Shown here piece by piece: positions 24,483-42,533 of a DNA stretch of 64,000 nucleotides. Under the pieces are notes generated by a model. It was not told where the DNA came from. It made no database searches and saw only the letters and a list, made by a program, of their open reading frames with translations. The DNA is from Sulfurivirga caldicuralii (GTDB taxonomy: Bacteria; Pseudomonadota; Gammaproteobacteria; Thiomicrospirales; Thiomicrospiraceae). The translations under genes and the position numbers were made by a program. The stretch's first letter is position 1. Each line of letters opens with the position of its first letter. Location of the stretch: contig NZ_FSRE01000003.1 in assembly GCF_900141795.1 (NCBI RefSeq), forward strand, positions 62,001-126,000, read 5' to 3'.

Positions 24483-24511
24483 TTGACAGCCACCCACTTG
24501 CCTTTAATAAT
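24483..24511 (+). promoter_or_regulatory. Sigma-70 type promoter of the mevalonate operon
   Basis: TTGACA (24483-24488) and AATAAT (24506-24511) are separated by exactly 17 bases. The expected start of transcription is near 24518, about 31 bases before the HMG-CoA reductase ATG. The region upstream (24400-24480) is AT-rich and could also hold the divergent peroxiredoxin promoter. Confidence 0.7.
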
Positions 24512-24548
24512 GCCGAAACGCTTCATACTCAAGGACCGAGTCGCTTCC

Positions 24549-25580
24549 ATGCAGTTTGCACAGATTCCCATGCAGTGGGTGGGCCCCCTGCTTCTTCGCG
24601 GCGACATTGAGGACCGCGTGGAAGCCCCCATGGCTACCTATGAAACACCGCTATGGCCGTCGGTCAATCGAGGCGCCCGCGTGACGGAAAAGGCCGGGGG
24701 CATACGCATCACGCTGATTGATGCGCGCATGAGCCGCTCCATCACCCTGCAGGCTGTCAATGCCCATGAAGCGCACCAGGCAGCACAGGCCATCCTCGAA
24801 CAGCAGGACCGTCTGCAGGCGGTGGTCAGCCAGAGCAGCCGCTTCGCCCGCCTGATCGAAATCCACCCTAAAATCATCGGCAACCTGCTTATTCTGCGGC
24901 TCGAGTTCACCACCGGCGATGCCTCCGGGCACAACATGGTGACCCATGCAGCCGATCAGCTGATTCCGTGGCTACTGCAACATCACCCGCAGTTGCGCTA
25001 CGTCTCTATTTCCGGCAACTTCTGCACCGACAAGAAGGTTTCCGCCGTCAATGCTCTGCACGGTCGTGGCAAGAACGTGGTCGCGGAAACCTGGCTGCCG
25101 GAAAAACTGGTGCGACGGTATCTAAAGACCACACCGGAAAAACTCGTGGAGCTTCACATCAAGAAAAACCTGCTGGGCAGCATCGCCGCTGGCAGCCTGA
25201 TGAGTGCCAACGCCCACGCCGCCAACATGCTGCTCGCCTTCTATCTGGCCACCGGGCAGGATGCTGCCAATATCGTGGAAGGCTCCCAGTGCATTGATCA
25301 CGCCGAAGTCCACGACAACGGCGATCTCTATTTTTCCACCACCCTGCCCAACCTGATCGTCGGCACCGTCGGCAACGGCAAGGGGCTGGATTTCGTGCAG
25401 GAAAATCTGGCGCGCATGGGTTGTACAGATCCCGACGCCCTCCCCGGCGAAAACGCCCGGCGCCTGGCAGGCATCTGCGCCGCCACGGTGCTGTGCGGCG
25501 AGCTGTCCCTGTTGGCGGCGCAAACCAATCCAGGCGAGCTGATGGCCGCCCACCTGAAACTGGAGCGCAAAGGCTCATGA
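24549..25580 (+). CDS. mvaA: Hydroxymethylglutaryl-CoA reductase
   Basis: The enzyme reduces HMG-CoA to mevalonate, the committed step of the mevalonate pathway. The 343-residue product shows the class I type pattern: catalytic Glu32 in ATYETPLWPSVNRG, Lys162/163 in SGNFCTDKKVSAVN followed by GRGKNVVAE, Asp238 in ATGQDAAN, the GTVGNGKGL loop and His335 near the C-terminus. There is no membrane anchor. I chose ATG 24549, since upstream in-frame starts overlap the predicted promoter. Its stop overlaps the isomerase start (ATGA). It leads a nine-gene operon. Class assignment (I or II) rests on motifs only. Confidence 0.92.
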   Translation: MQFAQIPMQWVGPLLLRGDIEDRVEAPMATYETPLWPSVNRGARVTEKAGGIRITLIDARMSRSITLQAVNAHEAHQAAQAILEQQDRLQAVVSQSSRFARLIEIHPKIIGNLLILRLEFTTGDASGHNMVTHAADQLIPWLLQHHPQLRYVSISGNFCTDKKVSAVNALHGRGKNVVAETWLPEKLVRRYLKTTPEKLVELHIKKNLLGSIAAGSLMSANAHAANMLLAFYLATGQDAANIVEGSQCIDHAEVHDNGDLYFSTTLPNLIVGTVGNGKGLDFVQENLARMGCTDPDALPGENARRLAGICAATVLCGELSLLAAQTNPGELMAAHLKLERKGS

Positions 25581-26593
25581 GCTCGCTGCAGCAGCGCAAG
25601 GAAGACCATATCCGCGTGGTGCTTGAGGACACAGCGGTGGATCGCCGCCAGAGCGGCCTGGAACAGATTCGCCTCATGCACCGCGCCCTGCCCGAGCTGG
25701 ATTACGACGCCGTCGACCCCCGCTGCACCTTTCTCGACTACACGCTCAGCTTTCCATTCCTCATCAGTTCCATGACCGGCGGGCAAGGGGATGCGCTGGG
25801 GCGTATCAACCGGCACCTGGCCGAAGCCGCCGAAGCCATGGGCGTGGCCATGGCCGTAGGCTCGCAGCGCATCATGCTGGCGCATCCGGAAGCGGCGGAA
25901 AGCTTTCGCCTGCGCCGCTACGCGCCATCGGTTCCGCTGATCGCCAACCTGGGCGCCGTACAGCTTAACGAAGGCATTACCCTGGACGATATCGACCGCA
26001 TTGTGGATACGCTGGAAGCAGATGCCCTGTATCTGCACCTTAATCCCCTGCAGGAAGTCATCCAGCCCGAAGGCGATCGCAACTTTGCCGGGCTGGCCGA
26101 CAAAATTGCCGAAGTGACTGACTATCTCCCCATTCCCGTTATTCTCAAGGAAGTGGGCTGCGGCCTCTCCCCTGCAGATATTGAGCTTGGCCTACAGGCG
26201 GGCGTGCGCTACTTCGACGTGGCCGGGCGTGGCGGCACCAGCTGGAGCCGTATTGAGGCCCACCGCAGCGATGACGATCTGGGCATCACCTTTCAGGACT
26301 GGGGGCTGACCACGCTGGAAGCCCTGCAGCTCGCCCGCCCCTATCGGGAGCGTGCCCACCTCATTGCCAGCGGCGGACTGCGCTCCGGTGTGGATCTTTA
26401 CAAATGCGTTATAATGGGCAGCTTTATGTGCGGGGTCGCCGGCCCACTGCTGCAGGCCGCCACCGAATCCACCGAAGCGGTCATTCAGGTCATCGAACGC
26501 TTTTATCGGGAATACCGCACCGCCCAGTTTCTAACCGGCGCCGCCACCTTTGAGCAGGCGTATGACAACGCGCAGCTCATTCTGCGCGCATGA
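25577..26593 (+). CDS. fni: Type 2 isopentenyl-diphosphate delta-isomerase
   Basis: This FMN enzyme interconverts isopentenyl and dimethylallyl diphosphate. The 338-residue product has the type 2 features: [12 protein letters not shown] at the start, [49 protein letters not shown], the glycine-rich [11 protein letters not shown] and the flavin phosphate site IASGGLRSG. Bacteria that use the mevalonate route often carry this type. The ATG overlaps the reductase stop by four bases. Because the decarboxylase makes only isopentenyl diphosphate, an isomerase is essential in a mevalonate pathway, which fits its presence here. Confidence 0.95.
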
Positions 26594-26612
26594 CAGCGAG
26601 ACAGTCTCATAT

Positions 26613-27788
26613 ATGAATGTAGGCATTGATCTGATCCACTTCGCCACCTCGGACTACTATCTGGGGCTGGACACCTTCGCCGAAGAAAAAGGCATCGATG
26701 TCAACAAGTTCTACGTGGGAATCGGTCAGGAACGCATGTCCATTGCGCCCCCTGACGAGGACATCGTTACCCTCTCTGCCAAGGCCGCCGCCCCCCTGCT
26801 GGATCAGATCGAACGCGACAAGATTACCGCCGTGCTGCTGGCGACCGAAAGCGGCGTGGATCAGTCCAAGTCTGCCAGCGCCTATCTGCATGGCCTGCTG
26901 GGCCTGCACAAGAACTGCCGCCTGATCGAGCTCAAGCACGCCTGCTATGCCGGTGCCGCCGCCCTGCAGATGGCGCAGGGCCTCGTGCACGCCAACCCCA
27001 ACGAAAAGGTGCTGGTCATCGCTGCCGACATCGCCAAGTACGATGTGGACTCCTCCGGCGAAGCCACCCAGGGGTGCGGCGCGGCCGCCATGATCATCAA
27101 GAAGGATCCGCGCCTGCTGGTGCTGGAGCCGGGCTCCGGCTTCTACGCCGACGACGTGATGGACTTCTGGCGCCCCAACTACCGCGAAACCGCGCTGGTG
27201 GACGGCAAGTATTCCACCAAGGTCTATCTCAACAGCCTCAAGGAAACCTGGAAGCACTTTACTATCAATACCGGTCGCGGCTATGAGGATATCGACTACT
27301 TCTGCTACCACCTGCCGTTTACCAAAATGGCAGAAAAGGCACACAAGGCCCTCACGAAAGTTGCCGGCGTTTCCCTGAGCGACGAGGAGATGAAGGCGCT
27401 GCTGGCACCCGGGCAGGCCTATAACCGCCAGCTGGGCAACAGCTACACCGCCAGCCTGTTTATCGGGTTCGCCTCTCTGCTGGACAACGCCAGCGAAGAC
27501 CTGACAGGCAAACGCATCGGTCTGTTCAGCTACGGCTCCGGCTGCGTGTCCGAATTCTTTACCGGCGTCGTCCAGCCCGGTTATCAGGATCACCTGTTCA
27601 GCGACGATCACCGCTGGCAGATCGAACACCGCGCACCGCTCAACTACGCCGAGTATCTGCAGCTGTACCACACCCAGCCCGAGGGCCTTTACGAGGGTCA
27701 GGTGGTGCTGCCCGAATACAACCGCGGCCCCTTCCGGCTGAAGGCCATCAAGGATCACAAGCGCCTGTACGAACGCCGCGAGGCATGA
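26613..27788 (+). CDS. mvaS: Hydroxymethylglutaryl-CoA synthase
   Basis: MvaS condenses acetoacetyl-CoA with acetyl-CoA to HMG-CoA. The 391-residue product keeps the catalytic triad at the positions known for the Staphylococcus enzyme: Glu79 in ATESGVD, Cys111 in KHACYAG and His233 in CYHLPF. Further family segments are GQERMSIAPPDEDIVT and QLGNSYTASLF. It starts at ATG 26613, 19 bases after the isomerase stop, with only a weak ribosome-binding site. It ends one base before the GTG of the mevalonate kinase. No acetoacetyl-CoA thiolase gene is seen in the window. Confidence 0.96.
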   Translation: MNVGIDLIHFATSDYYLGLDTFAEEKGIDVNKFYVGIGQERMSIAPPDEDIVTLSAKAAAPLLDQIERDKITAVLLATESGVDQSKSASAYLHGLLGLHKNCRLIELKHACYAGAAALQMAQGLVHANPNEKVLVIAADIAKYDVDSSGEATQGCGAAAMIIKKDPRLLVLEPGSGFYADDVMDFWRPNYRETALVDGKYSTKVYLNSLKETWKHFTINTGRGYEDIDYFCYHLPFTKMAEKAHKALTKVAGVSLSDEEMKALLAPGQAYNRQLGNSYTASLFIGFASLLDNASEDLTGKRIGLFSYGSGCVSEFFTGVVQPGYQDHLFSDDHRWQIEHRAPLNYAEYLQLYHTQPEGLYEGQVVLPEYNRGPFRLKAIKDHKRLYERREA

Positions 27789-27789
27789 C

Positions 27790-28776
27790 GTGACCACGGT
27801 TTCCGCGCAGGCGCCCGCCAAGGCCATCCTCAGCGGCGAACACAGCATTGTCGCCGGCGCACCGGCCATTGCCGTCCCCCTTCCCCTACAGACCACGGCT
27901 GAAATCACCTACTGCGAAAGGGGGTCCCCGACTTTTTTCATCGACCTGCCTGACCTCGATGCACAGTGTGCCCTGCCCTGGGACGTCTGGGCCGCACAAT
28001 GCGCCCAAAAACATGCCCTCTGGCAGCAGACACAGCGGGCCGTGCTTGAATCCCCTACCGATCTGGTCGCCCTGACGCTGTGGCAATATCACGCCCTGCT
28101 GCCACTGCCGGAAGGTCAGTGGCAGGTACGCATCAGTGGACATCCGTGGCAGGGGCGCGGCCTGGGTAGCTCCGCCAGCGTGGTCGCGGCACTGCTCAAG
28201 GCACTGAATGAATTAGTGGACACACCGCTGGCCGATGATGCTTTGCTCGCCACTGCCATCCGCAGCGAGCACTACGCCCACGGCCGCAGCAGCGGGCTGG
28301 ACCCGGCCACCATCCTGCACAATACGCCGCTGTGGCTGACGCGCAGTCCGACCGGACTGGAATGGGAACCCATCGACCTTGCGCTTCCCCGTTTCTGGCT
28401 TGTCGACACGGGCCCACCCGATGCCAGCACCGGTGAGTGCGTATACGCCGTGCGCCAGCGCTTTCCTGCTTCACATTCCATCTGGGAGGCTTTTGCCGCC
28501 ACCACAGAAACCGTTAGAACTGCACTGGAAAGGCACGACATGCAGCAGCTGCACGAGGCCATTCAGACCAATCACGTGCTGCTGCGCAAGATCGGTGTGG
28601 TGCCCGACCGCGTCAATGCCCTGATTCGCAAACTGAACCGCAGCGGTGCCGCGAAGGTTTCCGGGGCCGGCAGCGTACGCGGAGTGGCAGCCGGCATGGT
28701 GCTATACTTTGGTGAATCACCCCCCGACAAGGTCCTGCTGCATGACTTCAATGCCACCGCCCTCCCGCTGGGTTAG
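27790..28776 (+). CDS. mvk: Mevalonate kinase
   Basis: A GHMP-family kinase that phosphorylates mevalonate at C5. The 328-residue product has motif 1 APAKAILSGEHSIVAGAPA, motif 2 GRGLGSSASVVAA (residues 122-134, ATP phosphate loop), a GRSSGLDPAT segment typical of mevalonate kinase (catalytic Asp) and motif 3 KVSGAGSVRGVAAG. It starts with GTG 27790, one base past the mvaS stop. Residues RGSPTFF (44-50) derive from an in-frame copy of the short repeat in a variable beta-turn region. The end overlaps the next kinase by 35 bases. Choice between mevalonate and phosphomevalonate kinase rests on the SGLD segment. Confidence 0.85.
   Translation: MTTVSAQAPAKAILSGEHSIVAGAPAIAVPLPLQTTAEITYCERGSPTFFIDLPDLDAQCALPWDVWAAQCAQKHALWQQTQRAVLESPTDLVALTLWQYHALLPLPEGQWQVRISGHPWQGRGLGSSASVVAALLKALNELVDTPLADDALLATAIRSEHYAHGRSSGLDPATILHNTPLWLTRSPTGLEWEPIDLALPRFWLVDTGPPDASTGECVYAVRQRFPASHSIWEAFAATTETVRTALERHDMQQLHEAIQTNHVLLRKIGVVPDRVNALIRKLNRSGAAKVSGAGSVRGVAAGMVLYFGESPPDKVLLHDFNATALPLG
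27919..27938 (+). repeat. Short repeat copy 3 (inside mvk)
   Basis: Exact core with six T on the plus strand, read in frame as RGSPTFF in the mevalonate kinase. Confidence 0.92.
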
Positions 28777-29686
28777 TCGCGCCCCGGCCAGCACCATGGT
28801 GCTGGGCGAACATGCCGTGGTCTATGGCGAACCGGCGCTGGTCAGCGCGCTGGACCAGTGGCTCACCATCCGCTGGCAGCGTCTGGACGCGCGTGAGCTG
28901 CGTATCACCTCGGCTCTGGCCGACTATGCCGCGCCACTGGACGACCTGCACGACGACCCCAAGCTGCGCTTTGTGCTGGCACCGCTGCGCCAGCAGGCGC
29001 ACTGTCTCACCTCCGGCGTCGAGCTCACCATAGAAAGTGACATTTCCCCCACCATGGGGCTTGGCAGCTCCGCCGCCGCGTTGGCGGCAACGCTGGTGGG
29101 TCTGCAGCCACTGCTGACGGGGGCAGCTGCCCACAAGCTACACCTGTTTCAGCAGGGACGCGAACTGATTCAGATGATCCAGGGGCGCGGCTCCGGTGCG
29201 GATCTGGCTGCCAGCCTCTACGGTGGCACCATTCTGCTGGATCCGAAGCTGCCCGCCATCACCCCCATTCCCTTCTGCGAACGGGTCACACTCATTTACA
29301 GCGGCTACAAGACGCCCACCGGCGAAGTGCTGGAGCGCGTCGCGCAGGCGTGGGATCCTGTGCCGGAGCTGCGCGACGATCTCTACCACCTGATGGGCGA
29401 AACCACCCGCCGCGCCGTCAAGGCGCTGGCCGATGAAGACATCACCCACCCGCTGTTCAACCGGCTGTTCAATGTCTATCACGGCCTGATGGACGCCTTG
29501 GGCGTGTGCGACCTGACCCTGGCGAAAATCGTCTATGAAGCGCGCGAGCTGGGCCACGCCGCCAAAATCAGCGGCTCCGGTCTGGGCGACTGCGTGCTCG
29601 CTCTGGGTGAAGTCAATCTGCCCGGTTATGAGTGTCTGACACTGGACATCAGCGAAGACGGCGCCGAATGGTGGACGGAAGCATGA
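28742..29686 (+). CDS. Phosphomevalonate kinase (GHMP family)
   Basis: A second GHMP kinase, 314 residues, most likely converting phosphomevalonate to diphosphomevalonate. Motif 2 PTMGLGSSAA is at 103-112; GSGADLAASLYGG (150-162) and the C-terminal ISGSGLGDCVLAL follow the phosphomevalonate kinase pattern (the GDC end differs from the mevalonate kinase ending). The N-terminal GEHAVVYGEPALVSAL, however, looks like mevalonate kinase, so ancestry is mixed. AAGGT lies eight bases before ATG 28742; ATG 28751 is an alternative. The order kinase-kinase-decarboxylase supports the call. A pathway variant kinase cannot be excluded. Confidence 0.75.
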   Translation: MTSMPPPSRWVSRAPASTMVLGEHAVVYGEPALVSALDQWLTIRWQRLDARELRITSALADYAAPLDDLHDDPKLRFVLAPLRQQAHCLTSGVELTIESDISPTMGLGSSAAALAATLVGLQPLLTGAAAHKLHLFQQGRELIQMIQGRGSGADLAASLYGGTILLDPKLPAITPIPFCERVTLIYSGYKTPTGEVLERVAQAWDPVPELRDDLYHLMGETTRRAVKALADEDITHPLFNRLFNVYHGLMDALGVCDLTLAKIVYEARELGHAAKISGSGLGDCVLALGEVNLPGYECLTLDISEDGAEWWTEA

Positions 29687-30669
29687 ACCGCAAAGATTTT
29701 GTCACCCAACTGGTGCCGCACTGCACCGGCACGCCCGGCCAGCACGGCGAAGCCTGGGCACCGGTGAATATCGCGCTGGCCAAATACTGGGGCAAACGCA
29801 ATGCCGAACTCAATCTGCCGCAGAACAGCAGCCTCTCCATCAGCCTGCCAGAGCTGGGCACCCACACCCGTCTGACGCTCACGGAAGGTGCGGACACCGT
29901 CACGCTCAATGGCGCTTTAGCCCCGGAAGCTTTTGCGCAGCGTCTTAGCCGTTTTCTCAACCTGTTTCGTCCCGACGGGCTGGGCTTTGCGGTGGAAACC
30001 ACCAATACCGTCCCCACGGCTGCCGGTCTGGCCAGCTCCGCCTCCGGTTTTGCCGCGCTGATCAAGGCGTTGGACGCCCTGTTCGACTGGCAACTGGACT
30101 ACAAGACGCTGTCCATGCTGGCACGCATCGGCTCCGGCTCCGCCAGCCGTTCCCTGTATGATGGCTTCGCCGTCTGGCATCGAGGCGAGAAAGACGACGG
30201 CACGGACAGCTACGCCGAAGGCCTGCCCGAGACCTGGCCAGACCTGCGCATCGGGCTGGTAGAGGTGGACACCTCGCAAAAGCCCATCGGCTCCACCGCC
30301 GGCATGCAGCAGACTGTCAACAGTTGCCCGCTGTATACCGCCTGGCCGACATTTGCCGAACAGAGCGTGCAGACCCAACTGGCGGCCATCCGCGACCACG
30401 ACATGGAAAAACTGGGCGACAGCGCCGAGCACAATGCGCTGACCATGCACGCCACCATGATTGCCACCCGGCCCACTATCCTTTACTGGACACCCGAGAC
30501 CGTGCAAGCGATTCACACCGTACAGCAGCTCCGTGCCAGCGGCACACCGGTGTGGTTCACCATGGACGCCGGCCCCAATCTGAAACTGCTGCTCCCTCAC
30601 ACGGCGGCAGCCGCCGTGCAGACCTCCTTCCCCGAGGTGCGCATCCTGGCGCCCTTTGCGACGGCATGA
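29683..30669 (+). CDS. mvaD: Diphosphomevalonate decarboxylase
   Basis: MvaD converts diphosphomevalonate to isopentenyl diphosphate with ATP. The 328-residue product has the family motif APVNIALAKYWGKRN (residues 26-40), NSSLSISL, the phosphate loop PTAAGLASSASGFAAL (about 108-123) and SGSASRSLYDGF with the substrate-binding serine/arginine, then the DAGPNLKLL segment near the C-terminus. It overlaps the preceding kinase and the following PAP2 gene by four bases each. It completes the classical pathway encoded in this operon. Confidence 0.94.
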   Translation: MNRKDFVTQLVPHCTGTPGQHGEAWAPVNIALAKYWGKRNAELNLPQNSSLSISLPELGTHTRLTLTEGADTVTLNGALAPEAFAQRLSRFLNLFRPDGLGFAVETTNTVPTAAGLASSASGFAALIKALDALFDWQLDYKTLSMLARIGSGSASRSLYDGFAVWHRGEKDDGTDSYAEGLPETWPDLRIGLVEVDTSQKPIGSTAGMQQTVNSCPLYTAWPTFAEQSVQTQLAAIRDHDMEKLGDSAEHNALTMHATMIATRPTILYWTPETVQAIHTVQQLRASGTPVWFTMDAGPNLKLLLPHTAAAAVQTSFPEVRILAPFATA

Positions 30670-32680: not shown

Positions 32681-33814
32681 ATGAGCTGCAAGGAAAACCA
32701 CCGTTATACCACGTTCTGTCGCGCGCCCAACGACGCGCTCAAGGAGCCCATGTTCTTTGGTCAGAACGTCAATGTGGCCCGTTACGACCAGCAGAAACAC
32801 CCCATCTTCGAAAAGCTGATCGAGCGTCAGTTGAGCTTTTTCTGGCGCCCGGAAGAGATCGATCTGACCAAGGACCGCGCCGATTACACCAAGCTGCCCG
32901 ATCACGAACGCCACATTTTCCTCTCCAACCTGAAATATCAAACGCTGCTCGACTCGGTGCAGGGCCGCTCACCCAACGTGGCGCTGCTGCCGCTGGTGTC
33001 CATTCCGGAGCTGGAAACCTGGATCGAAACCTGGTCCTTTTCCGAAACCATTCACAGCCGCTCCTACACGCACATCATCCGCAATATCGTCACCGACCCC
33101 TCCAAGGTGTTCGACGACATCGTCACCAACCAAGCGATCATCGAGCGGGCCATTTCCGTCACCGAGCACTACGACCGCCTTATCTACCTGACCAACAAGA
33201 TGTACGCGGACGAGATCGATCTGGACAGCAACGACGACTTCCGTCGCAAAATCAAGAAGGCGCTGTTCCTCACGCTGGTATCGGTCAATGTACTGGAGGC
33301 GATCCGCTTCTACGTCTCCTTCGCCTGCGCCTTCAGCTTTGCCGAGCGCTCGCTGATGGAAGGCAACGCCAAGATCATCAAGCTCATCGCCCGCGACGAG
33401 GCACTGCACCTGTCCGGCACCCAGCACATGATCAATATCATCCGCGACGGCAAGGACGACCCGGAAATGGCTCAGATCGCCCACGAACTGGACGATGAAG
33501 TACGCCGCATCTTTCTGGAGGCCGCCGAGCAGGAGAAACGCTGGGCCGACTATCTGTTCAAGGACGGCTCCATGATTGGTCTCAACGCCTCCATTCTCAA
33601 GGATTACGTGGAATACATCACCAATATCCGCATCCGTGCCATCAACATGGAGCCGCTGTTCCCGAAGCGCTCCAATCCGCTGCCATGGATGAACAACTGG
33701 CTGGTGTCTGACAATGTACAGGTGGCGCCGCAGGAGTCCGAAATCACCTCCTACCTGGTCGGTCAGGTGGACAGCGACGTGGATGTGGAAGACTTCAAGG
33801 ACTTTGACCTGTAA
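32681..33814 (+). CDS. nrdB: Class Ia ribonucleotide reductase beta subunit
   Basis: NrdB holds the diiron-tyrosyl radical used by NrdA to reduce ribonucleoside diphosphates. The 377-residue product closely follows E. coli NrdB: Asp91 in LLDSVQG, Glu122 and His125 in [10 protein letters not shown], and radical Tyr129, plus the later ARDEALHL ligands. The C-terminal tail [10 protein letters not shown] is the NrdA-binding type. GAGGGA lies five bases before ATG 32681. nrdA, normally adjacent upstream, is not here. It is followed 11 bases later by the amphi-Trp gene, with TAAGGAG as ribosome-binding site overlapping its stop. Confidence 0.96.
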
Positions 33815-33825
33815 GGAGCGCTGCC

Positions 33826-34101
33826 ATGAGCCACAAGCCGCAGATTTTCGAGCACGAGTCCCTGCAGGACGCCGACAATCTGGCGGCCTTCCTCAAAGCG
33901 ATCGCCAAGGGCATCAAAAAGGGCGAAATCACCTTTACCGACGAAGACGACACCCTCACTTTGCGTCCCAAGGCACTGGGGCGCTTTCGCGTCAAGGTGC
34001 AAAAGTCGCCCAAGAGCCAATCGTTACGCCTCAAGATCACCTGGCAGGGTGACGACGAAAGCGATATCGACGATACGCCCCTATTTATCGAAACCCGATG
34101 A
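33826..34101 (+). CDS. Amphi-Trp domain protein
   Basis: A 91-residue soluble protein matching the amphi-Trp domain: FEHESLQDADNLAAFLKAIAKGIKKGEITFTDEDDTLTLRP-type layout of helix then beta strands, and the amphipathic ending LRLKITWQGDD with the conserved Trp. The domain has no known enzymatic function but occurs in the GAK gene system, together with an ATP-grasp enzyme and a kinase, and in archaea. Here both partners follow directly: it overlaps the APH-fold kinase by four bases. Family call is from motif memory, with no search run. Confidence 0.8.
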   Translation: MSHKPQIFEHESLQDADNLAAFLKAIAKGIKKGEITFTDEDDTLTLRPKALGRFRVKVQKSPKSQSLRLKITWQGDDESDIDDTPLFIETR

Positions 34102-35681
34102 AACCCACCACACCGCTGGCGCCCCTGCACTTCAGCTTTGCCGCCCTGCATCGGCAGTTGGAAGCATTAGGGCGCTGGTGTCTGCAGCAGACGGATCCCG
34201 ACCCCGTCCTGCAACAGGCGCGGCTGGCGCTGGATACCCAGCAGGTGGCGCTGTGGGATCTGCTCGGCCCCGATCTGGCGGACGACTCGCGCCGCATGCC
34301 GGCATTGGGGCTGATCCAGCTACAGCTGGGCCTGCGCGCCTGCGGCCTGCAACTGGCGGAACAGGGGCAGCTGATTAGGCGCGGCAAGCTGCTGAAAAGC
34401 CTGCGCAAGCGACTGCCTGCCTTTTTCGCCCCCCTGCAGCACCTGTTGCGCCGCCTCGAAGAGGGCGTGGAGCAGAGCCTCTCCCCCGAGGAACTCAACA
34501 AAGCCCTGCAGGCGTTGGCGCCACCGCTGCAAAGTCTGCATCGCCTGCTCGACAAGCGTTTCAAGAGCGGACAAAATGCCCCTTTCATCCTGCGCCAGTA
34601 CCAGTGGCTGTGGCAGCTGGAAGCGCTGGACGGGCCGCTTACCCAGGCCATCGAGGGCCTCATGACCTGGCAGCTGGGCAGCCCGCAACGGCTGGAGGCC
34701 GCCATTCTGTTCAAGCCCCTGAGCGATCAGGTCAAGGGCGAACTGCACTTCGAACCCATCCCCCATACCCGCTCCGGCGCGCTGGTACATGAAGTGGCCG
34801 ATGGCGAGCAGAGCATCATCGTCAAGCAGGGCACGGCAGAAAAACTGGCGCAGGAGCACAAGCAACTGCAGCAATGGGCCAGACGGTGGCCGGAACGGGT
34901 GCCCGAAGTGCTCGCCTTCAAGCGCAACCGAAAACAGGCGGTAATGGCGCTGACCAGTGCGCCGGGCGAAACCCTTGAACACTGGCTGCTGGCTGATGAC
35001 GAATCAGCCCTTTACAGCGGACTGGCTGCCCTCTTTGCCGCACTGGACGAGATATGGCAGCCAGGCAAGAAACGCGCCGAGCCGCCGCGTTTCATGGCGC
35101 AACTGCGCCGGCGGCTGCCCGATATCTACCGCGTGCATCCCGAATTCAAAAAGGGGCTGCAGGGCATAGGCGAAGCCAACATCCCCACGCTGGAGAAACT
35201 GATCGAGCGCTGCGAACGGCTGGAAAGAAAGTTCGCCCCGGTGCTGGCGGTCCCCATTCACGGTGACCTCAATATTGACAATGTGCTCTACGATCCTGAC
35301 AGCGACACCCTGACGCTCATCGACCTCAATCGCGCCAGCGAGGGCGACTACATTCAGGATCTGGCCATCCTCATGGCATCCTTCTACCGCACGCCCAATT
35401 ATCAGCGCACGGTGCGGCGTCGCATCGTCAACGCCATGTCCCGCGTGCACCGCTTCGCTCACCACGTCGGCCCCCGTCTGGAAGATCCCGCCATTGACGC
35501 CCGTCTTGCGCTGGGACTGGCCCGTGGCCTGATTACCAGCACCCGCTTCGTGTATGAACCCTGGCACGCCCAGCGCCTGCTGGAACTGGGACAGGTGCTG
35601 CTCGCCAGTCTGGCACGCATGAAACGAAAAGACCTGCCACGCTATACCCTTGATGAGGCCCTGTTCCATGAGCACCCCTAA
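34098..35681 (+). CDS. APH-fold kinase-like protein with N-terminal extension
   Basis: A 527-residue protein. Residues about 225-500 form an aminoglycoside-phosphotransferase (APH) kinase fold: SIIVKQGTAEKLAQEHKQL (ATP lysine and helix), the catalytic HGDLNIDNVLYD (388 onward) and the metal site LIDLNRASEGDYIQDLA (about 406). Residues 1-220 are helical with no domain I recognise. It overlaps both the amphi-Trp gene and the ATP-grasp gene. Substrate is unknown; APH-fold enzymes phosphorylate small molecules or proteins. The classical GAK system uses an HprK-related kinase, so this would be a different kinase type. Confidence 0.78.
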   Translation: MKPTTPLAPLHFSFAALHRQLEALGRWCLQQTDPDPVLQQARLALDTQQVALWDLLGPDLADDSRRMPALGLIQLQLGLRACGLQLAEQGQLIRRGKLLKSLRKRLPAFFAPLQHLLRRLEEGVEQSLSPEELNKALQALAPPLQSLHRLLDKRFKSGQNAPFILRQYQWLWQLEALDGPLTQAIEGLMTWQLGSPQRLEAAILFKPLSDQVKGELHFEPIPHTRSGALVHEVADGEQSIIVKQGTAEKLAQEHKQLQQWARRWPERVPEVLAFKRNRKQAVMALTSAPGETLEHWLLADDESALYSGLAALFAALDEIWQPGKKRAEPPRFMAQLRRRLPDIYRVHPEFKKGLQGIGEANIPTLEKLIERCERLERKFAPVLAVPIHGDLNIDNVLYDPDSDTLTLIDLNRASEGDYIQDLAILMASFYRTPNYQRTVRRRIVNAMSRVHRFAHHVGPRLEDPAIDARLALGLARGLITSTRFVYEPWHAQRLLELGQVLLASLARMKRKDLPRYTLDEALFHEHP

Positions 35682-36579
35682 GATCGCCGTCGTCGGCCTG
35701 CCCGGCAAATGGTCCACCGAAGCCCTCGCAGACGCGTTGGAAGCCCGCACCGGCTTCCGCGCCATCCTCGACCCGGCGCACCTGCGCGTGGAGTTGGATG
35801 GCCGCGTTATCCACAGTGACCGCCACGACCTGTGTAAACTGGACGGCATCGTCATCAAGAAGGTCGGCCCGCAATACAGCCCGCTCATGCTCGACCGGCT
35901 GGAATTGCTGCAGTTTGCGGAAGTCTGCGGCGTGCCCGTCTTTTCCCGTCCTGAGCGCATCGCCCGGCTAGTAGATCGCCTCAGCGGCACGCTCACCCTG
36001 CGCCGCGGGCAGATTCCCATGCCGCCCACCGTCATCACCGAGCAGGTGGACGAAGCTATCGACGTGGTGAATCAGTTTGGCAGCGTCATCCTTAAGCCCC
36101 TCTATTCCACCAAAGCCAAGGGCATGGTGGTGCTGGAGGCCGGCAAACTGAATAAAAAGCAGCTCATGAGCCGCCTCGCCGCCTACAAGAGTCAGCACGG
36201 CATCCTCTATCTGCAGAAAAAGCTGGAGCTGCCCGGACAGGACATGGGACTGGTGTTTCTCGGCGGCGAATATCAGGGCGCCTACGCGCGCGTGAAGGGA
36301 GAGCAGTGGCATACCAGCACCAGCGGGGGCGGCAAGTATGCCGAGGCACACCCCACCGACGAGACCATCGAAATCGCCCGCCGGGCGCAGGCGCTGTTCG
36401 GGCTGGACTTTACCACTGTGGACATGGCGGAAACCGCTGACGGCCCCGTCTGCTTTGAAGTGAGCGCCTTCGGCGGCTTCCGCGGCGCGCTGGAGGGGCT
36501 GGGGCTCAATATGGCAGAAAAATACGCCGACTACGTGCTTGCACGCATCGATGCGAAGCGCGCAAAAAACGGCAACTGA
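35668..36579 (+). CDS. RimK-like ATP-grasp enzyme (GAK-type)
   Basis: A 303-residue ATP-grasp ligase related to RimK. Visible parts: an N-terminal domain (KIAVVGLPGKWSTEALADAL), the ATP-lysine strand SVILKPLYSTKAKGMVVLE (about 139-157), YLQKKLELPGQDMGLVFLGG and the metal site GPVCFEVSAFGGFRG (about 264-278). Such enzymes join a carboxylate to an amine, often on proteins or peptides. The start ATG 35668 lies within the end of the APH-like gene. Genes order amphi-Trp, kinase, ATP-grasp matches the parts of the GAK system. Its stop codon TGA merges with a copy of the short repeat. Confidence 0.8.
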   Translation: MSTPKIAVVGLPGKWSTEALADALEARTGFRAILDPAHLRVELDGRVIHSDRHDLCKLDGIVIKKVGPQYSPLMLDRLELLQFAEVCGVPVFSRPERIARLVDRLSGTLTLRRGQIPMPPTVITEQVDEAIDVVNQFGSVILKPLYSTKAKGMVVLEAGKLNKKQLMSRLAAYKSQHGILYLQKKLELPGQDMGLVFLGGEYQGAYARVKGEQWHTSTSGGGKYAEAHPTDETIEIARRAQALFGLDFTTVDMAETADGPVCFEVSAFGGFRGALEGLGLNMAEKYADYVLARIDAKRAKNGN

Positions 36580-36740: not shown

Positions 36741-36765
36741 AAAAAAACCGCCTTGCGGCGGTTTT
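36741..36765. terminator. Bidirectional terminator
   Basis: AAAACCGCC and GGCGGTTTT form a stem with a TTGC loop, flanked by A and T runs on both sides. It can end the minus-strand YihY/hypothetical transcript (stop at 36788) and the plus-strand nrdB operon, although the latter is about 160 bases away. Confidence 0.85.

Positions 36766-38963: not shown

Positions 38964-38964
<1 letters not shown>
38047..38964 (+). CDS. Cation diffusion facilitator (FieF-like) metal exporter
   Basis: A 305-residue CDF antiporter that exports Zn2+, Fe2+ or similar ions using the proton gradient. It has six membrane helices, the metal motif [11 protein letters not shown] in TM2, [18 protein letters not shown] in the first loop and [13 protein letters not shown] in TM5, which gives the Asp/Asp/His/Asp site of FieF/YiiP. 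The cytoplasmic C-terminal domain ends with histidines (DAAHHRW). I chose ATG 38047; upstream codons of the long open frame lie antisense to yihY. The stop shares a base with the next start (TGATG). Confidence 0.93.

Positions 38965-42520
<3,556 letters not shown>

Positions 42521-42533
<13 letters not shown>

Follow-up and report, generated by a model that had tools for sequence, protein, structure and literature searches.

The three overlapping genes at positions 33826 to 36579 of the window (the whole analysed stretch of 64,000 nucleotides of DNA of Sulfurivirga caldicuralii, a small sulfur oxidiser) are a real GAK (grasp, amphi-Trp, kinase) locus in its most reduced form, and not one with a newly swapped-in kinase: the locus is a variant of a known, functionally uncharacterised system. 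Comparison with about 100 relatives shows that a kinase combining a PhoU-type and an APH-fold domain is a constant, unnamed part of GAK systems, and the window locus has merely lost the HprK-related kinase B (HprK-B, TIGR04355), which we take to be the "K" of GAK. What the analysis adds is a list of the parts, the recognition of the PhoU-APH kinase as constant, a minimal core, a PhoU domain that has been remodelled and a hypothesis on the pathway that can be tested.

A sequence-only reading had described the trio as overlapping genes behind nrdB and as a GAK system, and both descriptions hold: the open reading frames, all on the forward strand, match family models, and both GAK models with a match exceed their curated cut-offs. 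The amphi-Trp protein (33826..34101; 91 amino acids) reaches 68.9 bits with TIGR04354 (cut-off 31) and 44.7 bits with Pfam PF20068 (cut-off 27) and is encoded by the only amphi-Trp gene of the genome (1.67 Mb, 7 contigs). It overlaps by 4 bp with the gene of the APH-fold kinase (34098..35681; 527 amino acids; Pfam APH with 62.4 bits at residues 245-431), which in turn overlaps by 14 bp with the gene of the GAK ATP-grasp enzyme (35668..36579; 303 amino acids; TIGR04356 with 430 bits, cut-off 300). The latter starts with the ATG at 35668, the mechanically called frame beginning earlier with a TTG at 35650, and its product is 74% identical to the ATP-grasp enzyme of an S. caldicuralii isolate (L093).

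The gene for the class Ia ribonucleotide reductase beta subunit, nrdB (32681..33814, forward strand; PRK09101 with 666 bits, cut-off 346), ends 11 bp upstream of amphi-Trp. The proposal that nrdB heads the transcript survives in part: it is an upstream neighbour that probably shares a transcript with the trio, but this neighbourhood is lineage-specific and we do not count nrdB as a GAK part. It is present in the fetched flank of 15 of 22 Thiomicrospiraceae loci with good flanks (at least 5 kb on either side of the locus) and of none of 46 such loci outside the family, and it is not adjacent to the GAK locus of another Sulfurivirga (L076). Downstream of the trio, a symmetrical hairpin (AAAACCGCC-TTGC-GGCGGTTTT, 36744..36765) is visible in the sequence and is a possible end of the transcription unit; the scan reports it for the minus strand alone, and sites of this kind do not exceed chance in the region. 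Elsewhere, the window contains a mevalonate-pathway cluster (24483-30666: HMG-CoA reductase, type 2 IPP isomerase, HMG-CoA synthase, two genes of the mevalonate kinase family and diphosphomevalonate decarboxylase), although gammaproteobacteria normally use the MEP pathway, and an open reading frame of 1189 amino acids (38964-42533) that resembles fused alpha and beta subunits of the caprolactamase/hydantoinase type, far below curated cut-offs.

GAK ATP-grasp enzymes (>300 bits) were found in 13 of 398 Pseudomonadota genomes, with one more, incomplete, at 274 bits; other RimK-like proteins of this sample reach at most 112 bits with TIGR04356. The loci of this survey were read together with 80 named loci and 18 loci from Thiomicrospiraceae, and 68 loci are well-flanked. 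Kinase, ATP-grasp and amphi-Trp occur together in all 68, which bears out the expected co-occurrence of the trio and defines these three as the GAK core. HprK-B is present in 66 of the 68 and is therefore a usual but not universal, dispensable kinase; a metallophosphoesterase, weakly related to ApaH, is found in 62 and a histidine phosphatase in 60. Amphi-Trp is encoded in 12 of the 13 genomes with GAK ATP-grasp (in the 13th the contig ends) and in nine further genomes, one of which (G184) has a cut-off GAK locus.

The usual gene order is PhoU-APH kinase, ATP-grasp, HprK-B, histidine phosphatase, metallophosphoesterase and amphi-Trp. In many loci a SixA-Nudix gene separates HprK-B from the histidine phosphatase; about 25 loci have a Nudix gene directly 5' of the kinase and 25 have a CofD-like gene (TIGR04357). 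The order in Thiomicrospiraceae is nrdB, histidine phosphatase, metallophosphoesterase, amphi-Trp, kinase, ATP-grasp and HprK-B. The window trio keeps the same relative gene order as the other loci of this family and, as in the GAK system defined by the NCBIfam models (TIGR04354, TIGR04355, TIGR04356, TIGR04357), its amphi-Trp and ATP-grasp proteins are above the cut-offs; it differs in having no HprK-B and no apparent CofD-like gene at the locus, and for the kinase, a part of every such locus, the GAK families include no model at all. Public annotation of plasmid loci independently agrees with our parts list; complete GAK operons are carried by large plasmids of Rhodobacterales (L217 and L218, Tritonibacter and Qingshengfaniella). 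In one Thiomicrospiraceae locus (L087, 7882-10429) kinase and ATP-grasp are each split into two open reading frames, by frameshifts or assembly errors. Phage records contained no match to the GAK ATP-grasp. Our search of the available literature for GAK, its families and combinations of its parts found no relevant study, in agreement with the earlier statement that no function is known.

The APH-fold kinase had been thought to substitute for HprK, and this idea has to be given up: the kinase is encoded in every adequately flanked locus, nearly always beside HprK-B. Of the 398 genomes, its profile finds the very 13 that the GAK ATP-grasp model finds and no others, and its gene is normally directly upstream of the ATP-grasp gene. 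As the profile was partly built from these 13 genomes, distant homologues could be missed, but nothing elsewhere reaches 1e-30. Public records list the protein as 'phosphotransferase' or 'aminoglycoside phosphotransferase family protein'. The predicted APH fold is supported by the AlphaFold2 model (pLDDT 91.4), which has an all-helical N-terminal part followed by the APH fold and finds APH(3')-Ia (4ej7) as its best match in the PDB (E 3.9e-9). The catalytic loop HGDLNIDN (residues 388-395; 35259..35282, forward strand) reads HGDxNxDN in 103 of 103 relatives, and the protein thus has both the fold and the catalytic HxDxxxxN of an APH-fold phosphotransferase. GAK kinases share fold and HGDxNxDN loop with the APH(3') aminoglycoside phosphotransferases but differ from them in the PhoU-type N-terminal domain, and the window kinase, with 54 bits, is below the equivalog cut-off of 205. 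Aminoglycoside resistance is not implied, because the kinase sits in a conserved system context.

The N-terminal domain (residues 1-212; 34098..34733, forward strand) had been regarded as unknown, which is true insofar as the approximately 212 residues of the window kinase alone match no family model. They are, however, linked to PhoU through the N-domain of the kinase family. Pfam PhoU matches 59 of 83 kinase family members (best 1.6e-16), and in an hhalign comparison spanning 213 columns the N-domain of the family aligns to genuine PhoU proteins (98.3%, E 1.3e-14). Five kinases have strongly diverged N-domains, those of the window, of two other Sulfurivirga and of two Thiomicrospira, and these five together align with the family N-domain at 92.3% (hhalign, E 5.6e-7). 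Against an N-domain profile of non-Thiomicrospiraceae kinases they score only -1 to 17 bits (window: -1.0), compared to 98 to 156 bits for all other relatives, while their catalytic domains still reach 257-315 bits. On this sequence evidence, we read the N-terminal domain as a PhoU domain throughout the family that has diverged beyond recognition in the window. All five loci with a diverged domain lack both phosphatases, but the correlation is not strict, as two loci of the Thiomicrorhabdus type (L106 and L098) have no local phosphatase genes and yet a normal PhoU domain. In the ATP-grasp tree, the Sulfurivirga sequences form a clade of their own (100/99), as do those of the two Thiomicrospira (100/100); the diverged state requires a minimum of two changes on this tree, whose deep branches are weakly resolved.

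HprK-B, histidine phosphatase and metallophosphoesterase have been lost genome-wide in the lineage of the window. The best score for HprK-B in the window genome is 17.7 bits (cut-off 200), GAK-type metallophosphoesterases and histidine phosphatases are absent from this genome and from that of one congener (G398) and do not rise above background in a second (G400), and no remnants of the three genes were found directly 3' of the window ATP-grasp gene. By inspection, there is also no apparent CofD-like gene (TIGR04357) among the open reading frames around the window locus. In another genome (G426), a metallophosphoesterase homologue of the GAK type (364 bits) with an in-frame TAG lies at a second site (C5:853776-854894), and the GAK locus of that genome has none; this copy is probably a decaying leftover.

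The retained genes are under constraint: in three Sulfurivirga genomes the frames of the whole trio are open, and dN is well below dS for all three genes among Sulfurivirga relatives (about 0.2-0.4 versus about 0.7-1.3 for ATP-grasp and kinase), so these are functional genes rather than chance open reading frames. Within the genus the N-domain is as conserved (58%) as the catalytic domain (52-59%), indicating that it was remodelled rather than abandoned.

The amphi-Trp protein is modelled by AlphaFold2 as one helix with four strands (pLDDT 84.8), and a fold search of the PDB returned no match with E<=0.001. Residues 8-15 (33847..33870, forward strand) form the GAK-specific motif F-x-H-E-S-L-Q-D: in the core HxSLQD, histidine and serine are each conserved in 75 of 78 GAK amphi-Trp proteins, and the motif is missing from three aligned non-GAK amphi-Trp proteins. 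His10 and Ser12 may be regarded as candidate phospho-acceptors. A role as LysW-like carrier was considered and rejected, as the C-terminus is not conserved. One non-GAK amphi-Trp gene (L186, 1453-3084) adjoins a gene for a Ppx/GppA phosphatase; the other non-GAK contexts examined differ.

The ATP-grasp enzyme belongs by sequence to the RimK/LysX/MptN branch, but falls outside the ordinary RimK and glutamate ligases, as the sequence-only reading had supposed: the window protein is below the cut-offs for rimK_fam (101 of 143 bits), MptN (138 of 350) and LysX (90 of 276). Aligned with RimK-like paralogues, it reads D192-M-G194 (36241..36249, forward strand) in place of D-x-R and E264-V-S266 (36457..36465, forward strand) in place of E-[VI]-N. 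Both differences are general: GAK ATP-grasps have D-x-G at the first site, and FEVSAFGG is found at the second in 110 of 110 sequences. Presumably these are substrate- or metal-binding positions of ATP-grasp ligases, and the exchanges of arginine to glycine and of asparagine to serine make glutamate ligation of the ordinary kind doubtful.

The neighbourhood of complete loci points to phosphate. Among flanking families outside the GAK core, CHAD is the most frequent (9 of 108 flank genes), and it is found near GAK in 11 non-redundant loci; with about 0.8 CHAD genes per GAK genome (19 in 24), roughly 0.3 loci among 69 would be expected (19 kb in 3.5 Mb), an estimate that, like all our neighbour counts, ignores shared ancestry. 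In nine loci, of which eight are non-redundant, CHAD is found together with a ParA gene; this pair beside GAK (L037, L039, L123, L130, L138, L152, L156 and L158) could be one for the positioning of polyphosphate granules. PhoU and Na/Pi cotransporter genes are among the neighbours too, and four non-redundant loci, one of them from a Sulfurivirga, have ppk1 within 9 kb of GAK. As a discriminator ppk1 is uninformative: every sampled member of the Thiomicrospiraceae has it, whether or not GAK is there too.

CHAD is a polyphosphate-binding domain, and genes that encode it alone are often part of polyphosphate operons (PMC6537752); genes for Nudix enzymes and histidine phosphatases are common behind ppk (PMC8003754). 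Complete GAK loci of several lineages share CHAD, Nudix, histidine phosphatase and occasionally ppk with such operons, but no polyphosphate enzyme is constant in GAK and none of these neighbours occurs at the window locus. Complete GAK systems are thus at present best placed in phosphate or polyphosphate physiology, as these neighbours suggest, with the link resting on the relatives: the genome of the window carries ppk1 and lacks CHAD, and its trio has no phosphatase.

Our preferred reading, which we hold tentatively and with slightly less than an even chance of being right, is that the window trio is a reduced core GAK system in which kinase and ATP-grasp act on amphi-Trp or on a molecule bound to it, and that complete systems work in phosphate or polyphosphate homeostasis. 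The three proteins would act together: the kinase would phosphorylate amphi-Trp at or near HxSLQD, or a small molecule bound to amphi-Trp (it is the conserved motif that points to the protein itself), and the ATP-grasp enzyme would perform a second ATP-dependent step on the target of the kinase, different from the usual ligation of glutamate. The PhoU domain of complete systems may sense a phosphate-rich ligand, HprK-B may provide another input and the phosphatases would reverse the modification; the Sulfurivirga version, with its sensing and reversal parts gone, would have fewer controls. A more far-reaching version, which we consider unlikely, makes GAK a widespread phosphate-sensing signalling system, in which PhoU-kinase and a chemically unusual ATP-grasp reversibly modify HxSLQD of amphi-Trp, a small protein dedicated to this acceptor role, and phosphatases of several classes erase the modification, controlling polyphosphate stores or granules, and of which Sulfurivirga keeps the writing core only.

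It is possible, if somewhat unlikely, that the trio instead makes or modifies a small metabolite, phosphorylated and with an amide link, that serves as cofactor or osmolyte, with amphi-Trp as structural or scaffold subunit and the phosphatases in biosynthesis or recycling. The nearest sequence relatives of the ATP-grasp enzyme are the small-molecule or protein ligases MptN, LysX and RimK, small molecules are the usual substrates of APH-fold kinases, many loci encode a CofD-like protein (CofD makes a cofactor phosphodiester) and the amphi-Trp C-terminus lacks the conservation of a LysW-type carrier; yet the enzyme is without the DxR and ExN of all well-aligned RimK-like ligases, the loci conserve no further biosynthetic enzymes and a pure scaffold has no obvious need for HxSLQD. 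Eukaryotic PPIP5K combines ATP-grasp and histidine phosphatase, and DIPP is a Nudix enzyme. The presence of ATP-grasp, RHG phosphatase, Nudix and PhoU in complete loci, with a metallophosphoesterase weakly related to ApaH, would also fit a messenger resembling inositol pyrophosphates or diadenosine polyphosphates that is made or read, PhoU being the reader; we regard this as improbable, given that the ATP-grasp is RimK-like by sequence, that no inositol genes were seen among the conserved neighbours and that the window genome lacks the phosphatases.

Still less probable is decay, with the window trio as a functionless remnant. The loss of several partner genes and an N-terminal domain no longer recognisable as PhoU would agree with decay, but not the open frames in three genomes, dN < dS, the intact catalytic residues and the equal conservation of N-domain and catalytic domain within the genus. 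Least of all do we expect the trio to serve nucleotide metabolism with nrdB: the short gap and the frequent nrdB flank in Thiomicrospiraceae are set against its absence from all 46 well-flanked loci outside the family and from beside the L076 locus.

Planctomycetes and many bacteria that live in the sea or oxidise sulfur have GAK genes. For these systems, the comparison identifies the PhoU-APH kinase as the constant part that was missing, ties complete loci to phosphate and polyphosphate genes and names specific residues. Natural gene loss defines a minimal core of three genes, and the Sulfurivirga trio is the smallest version of GAK for biochemistry.
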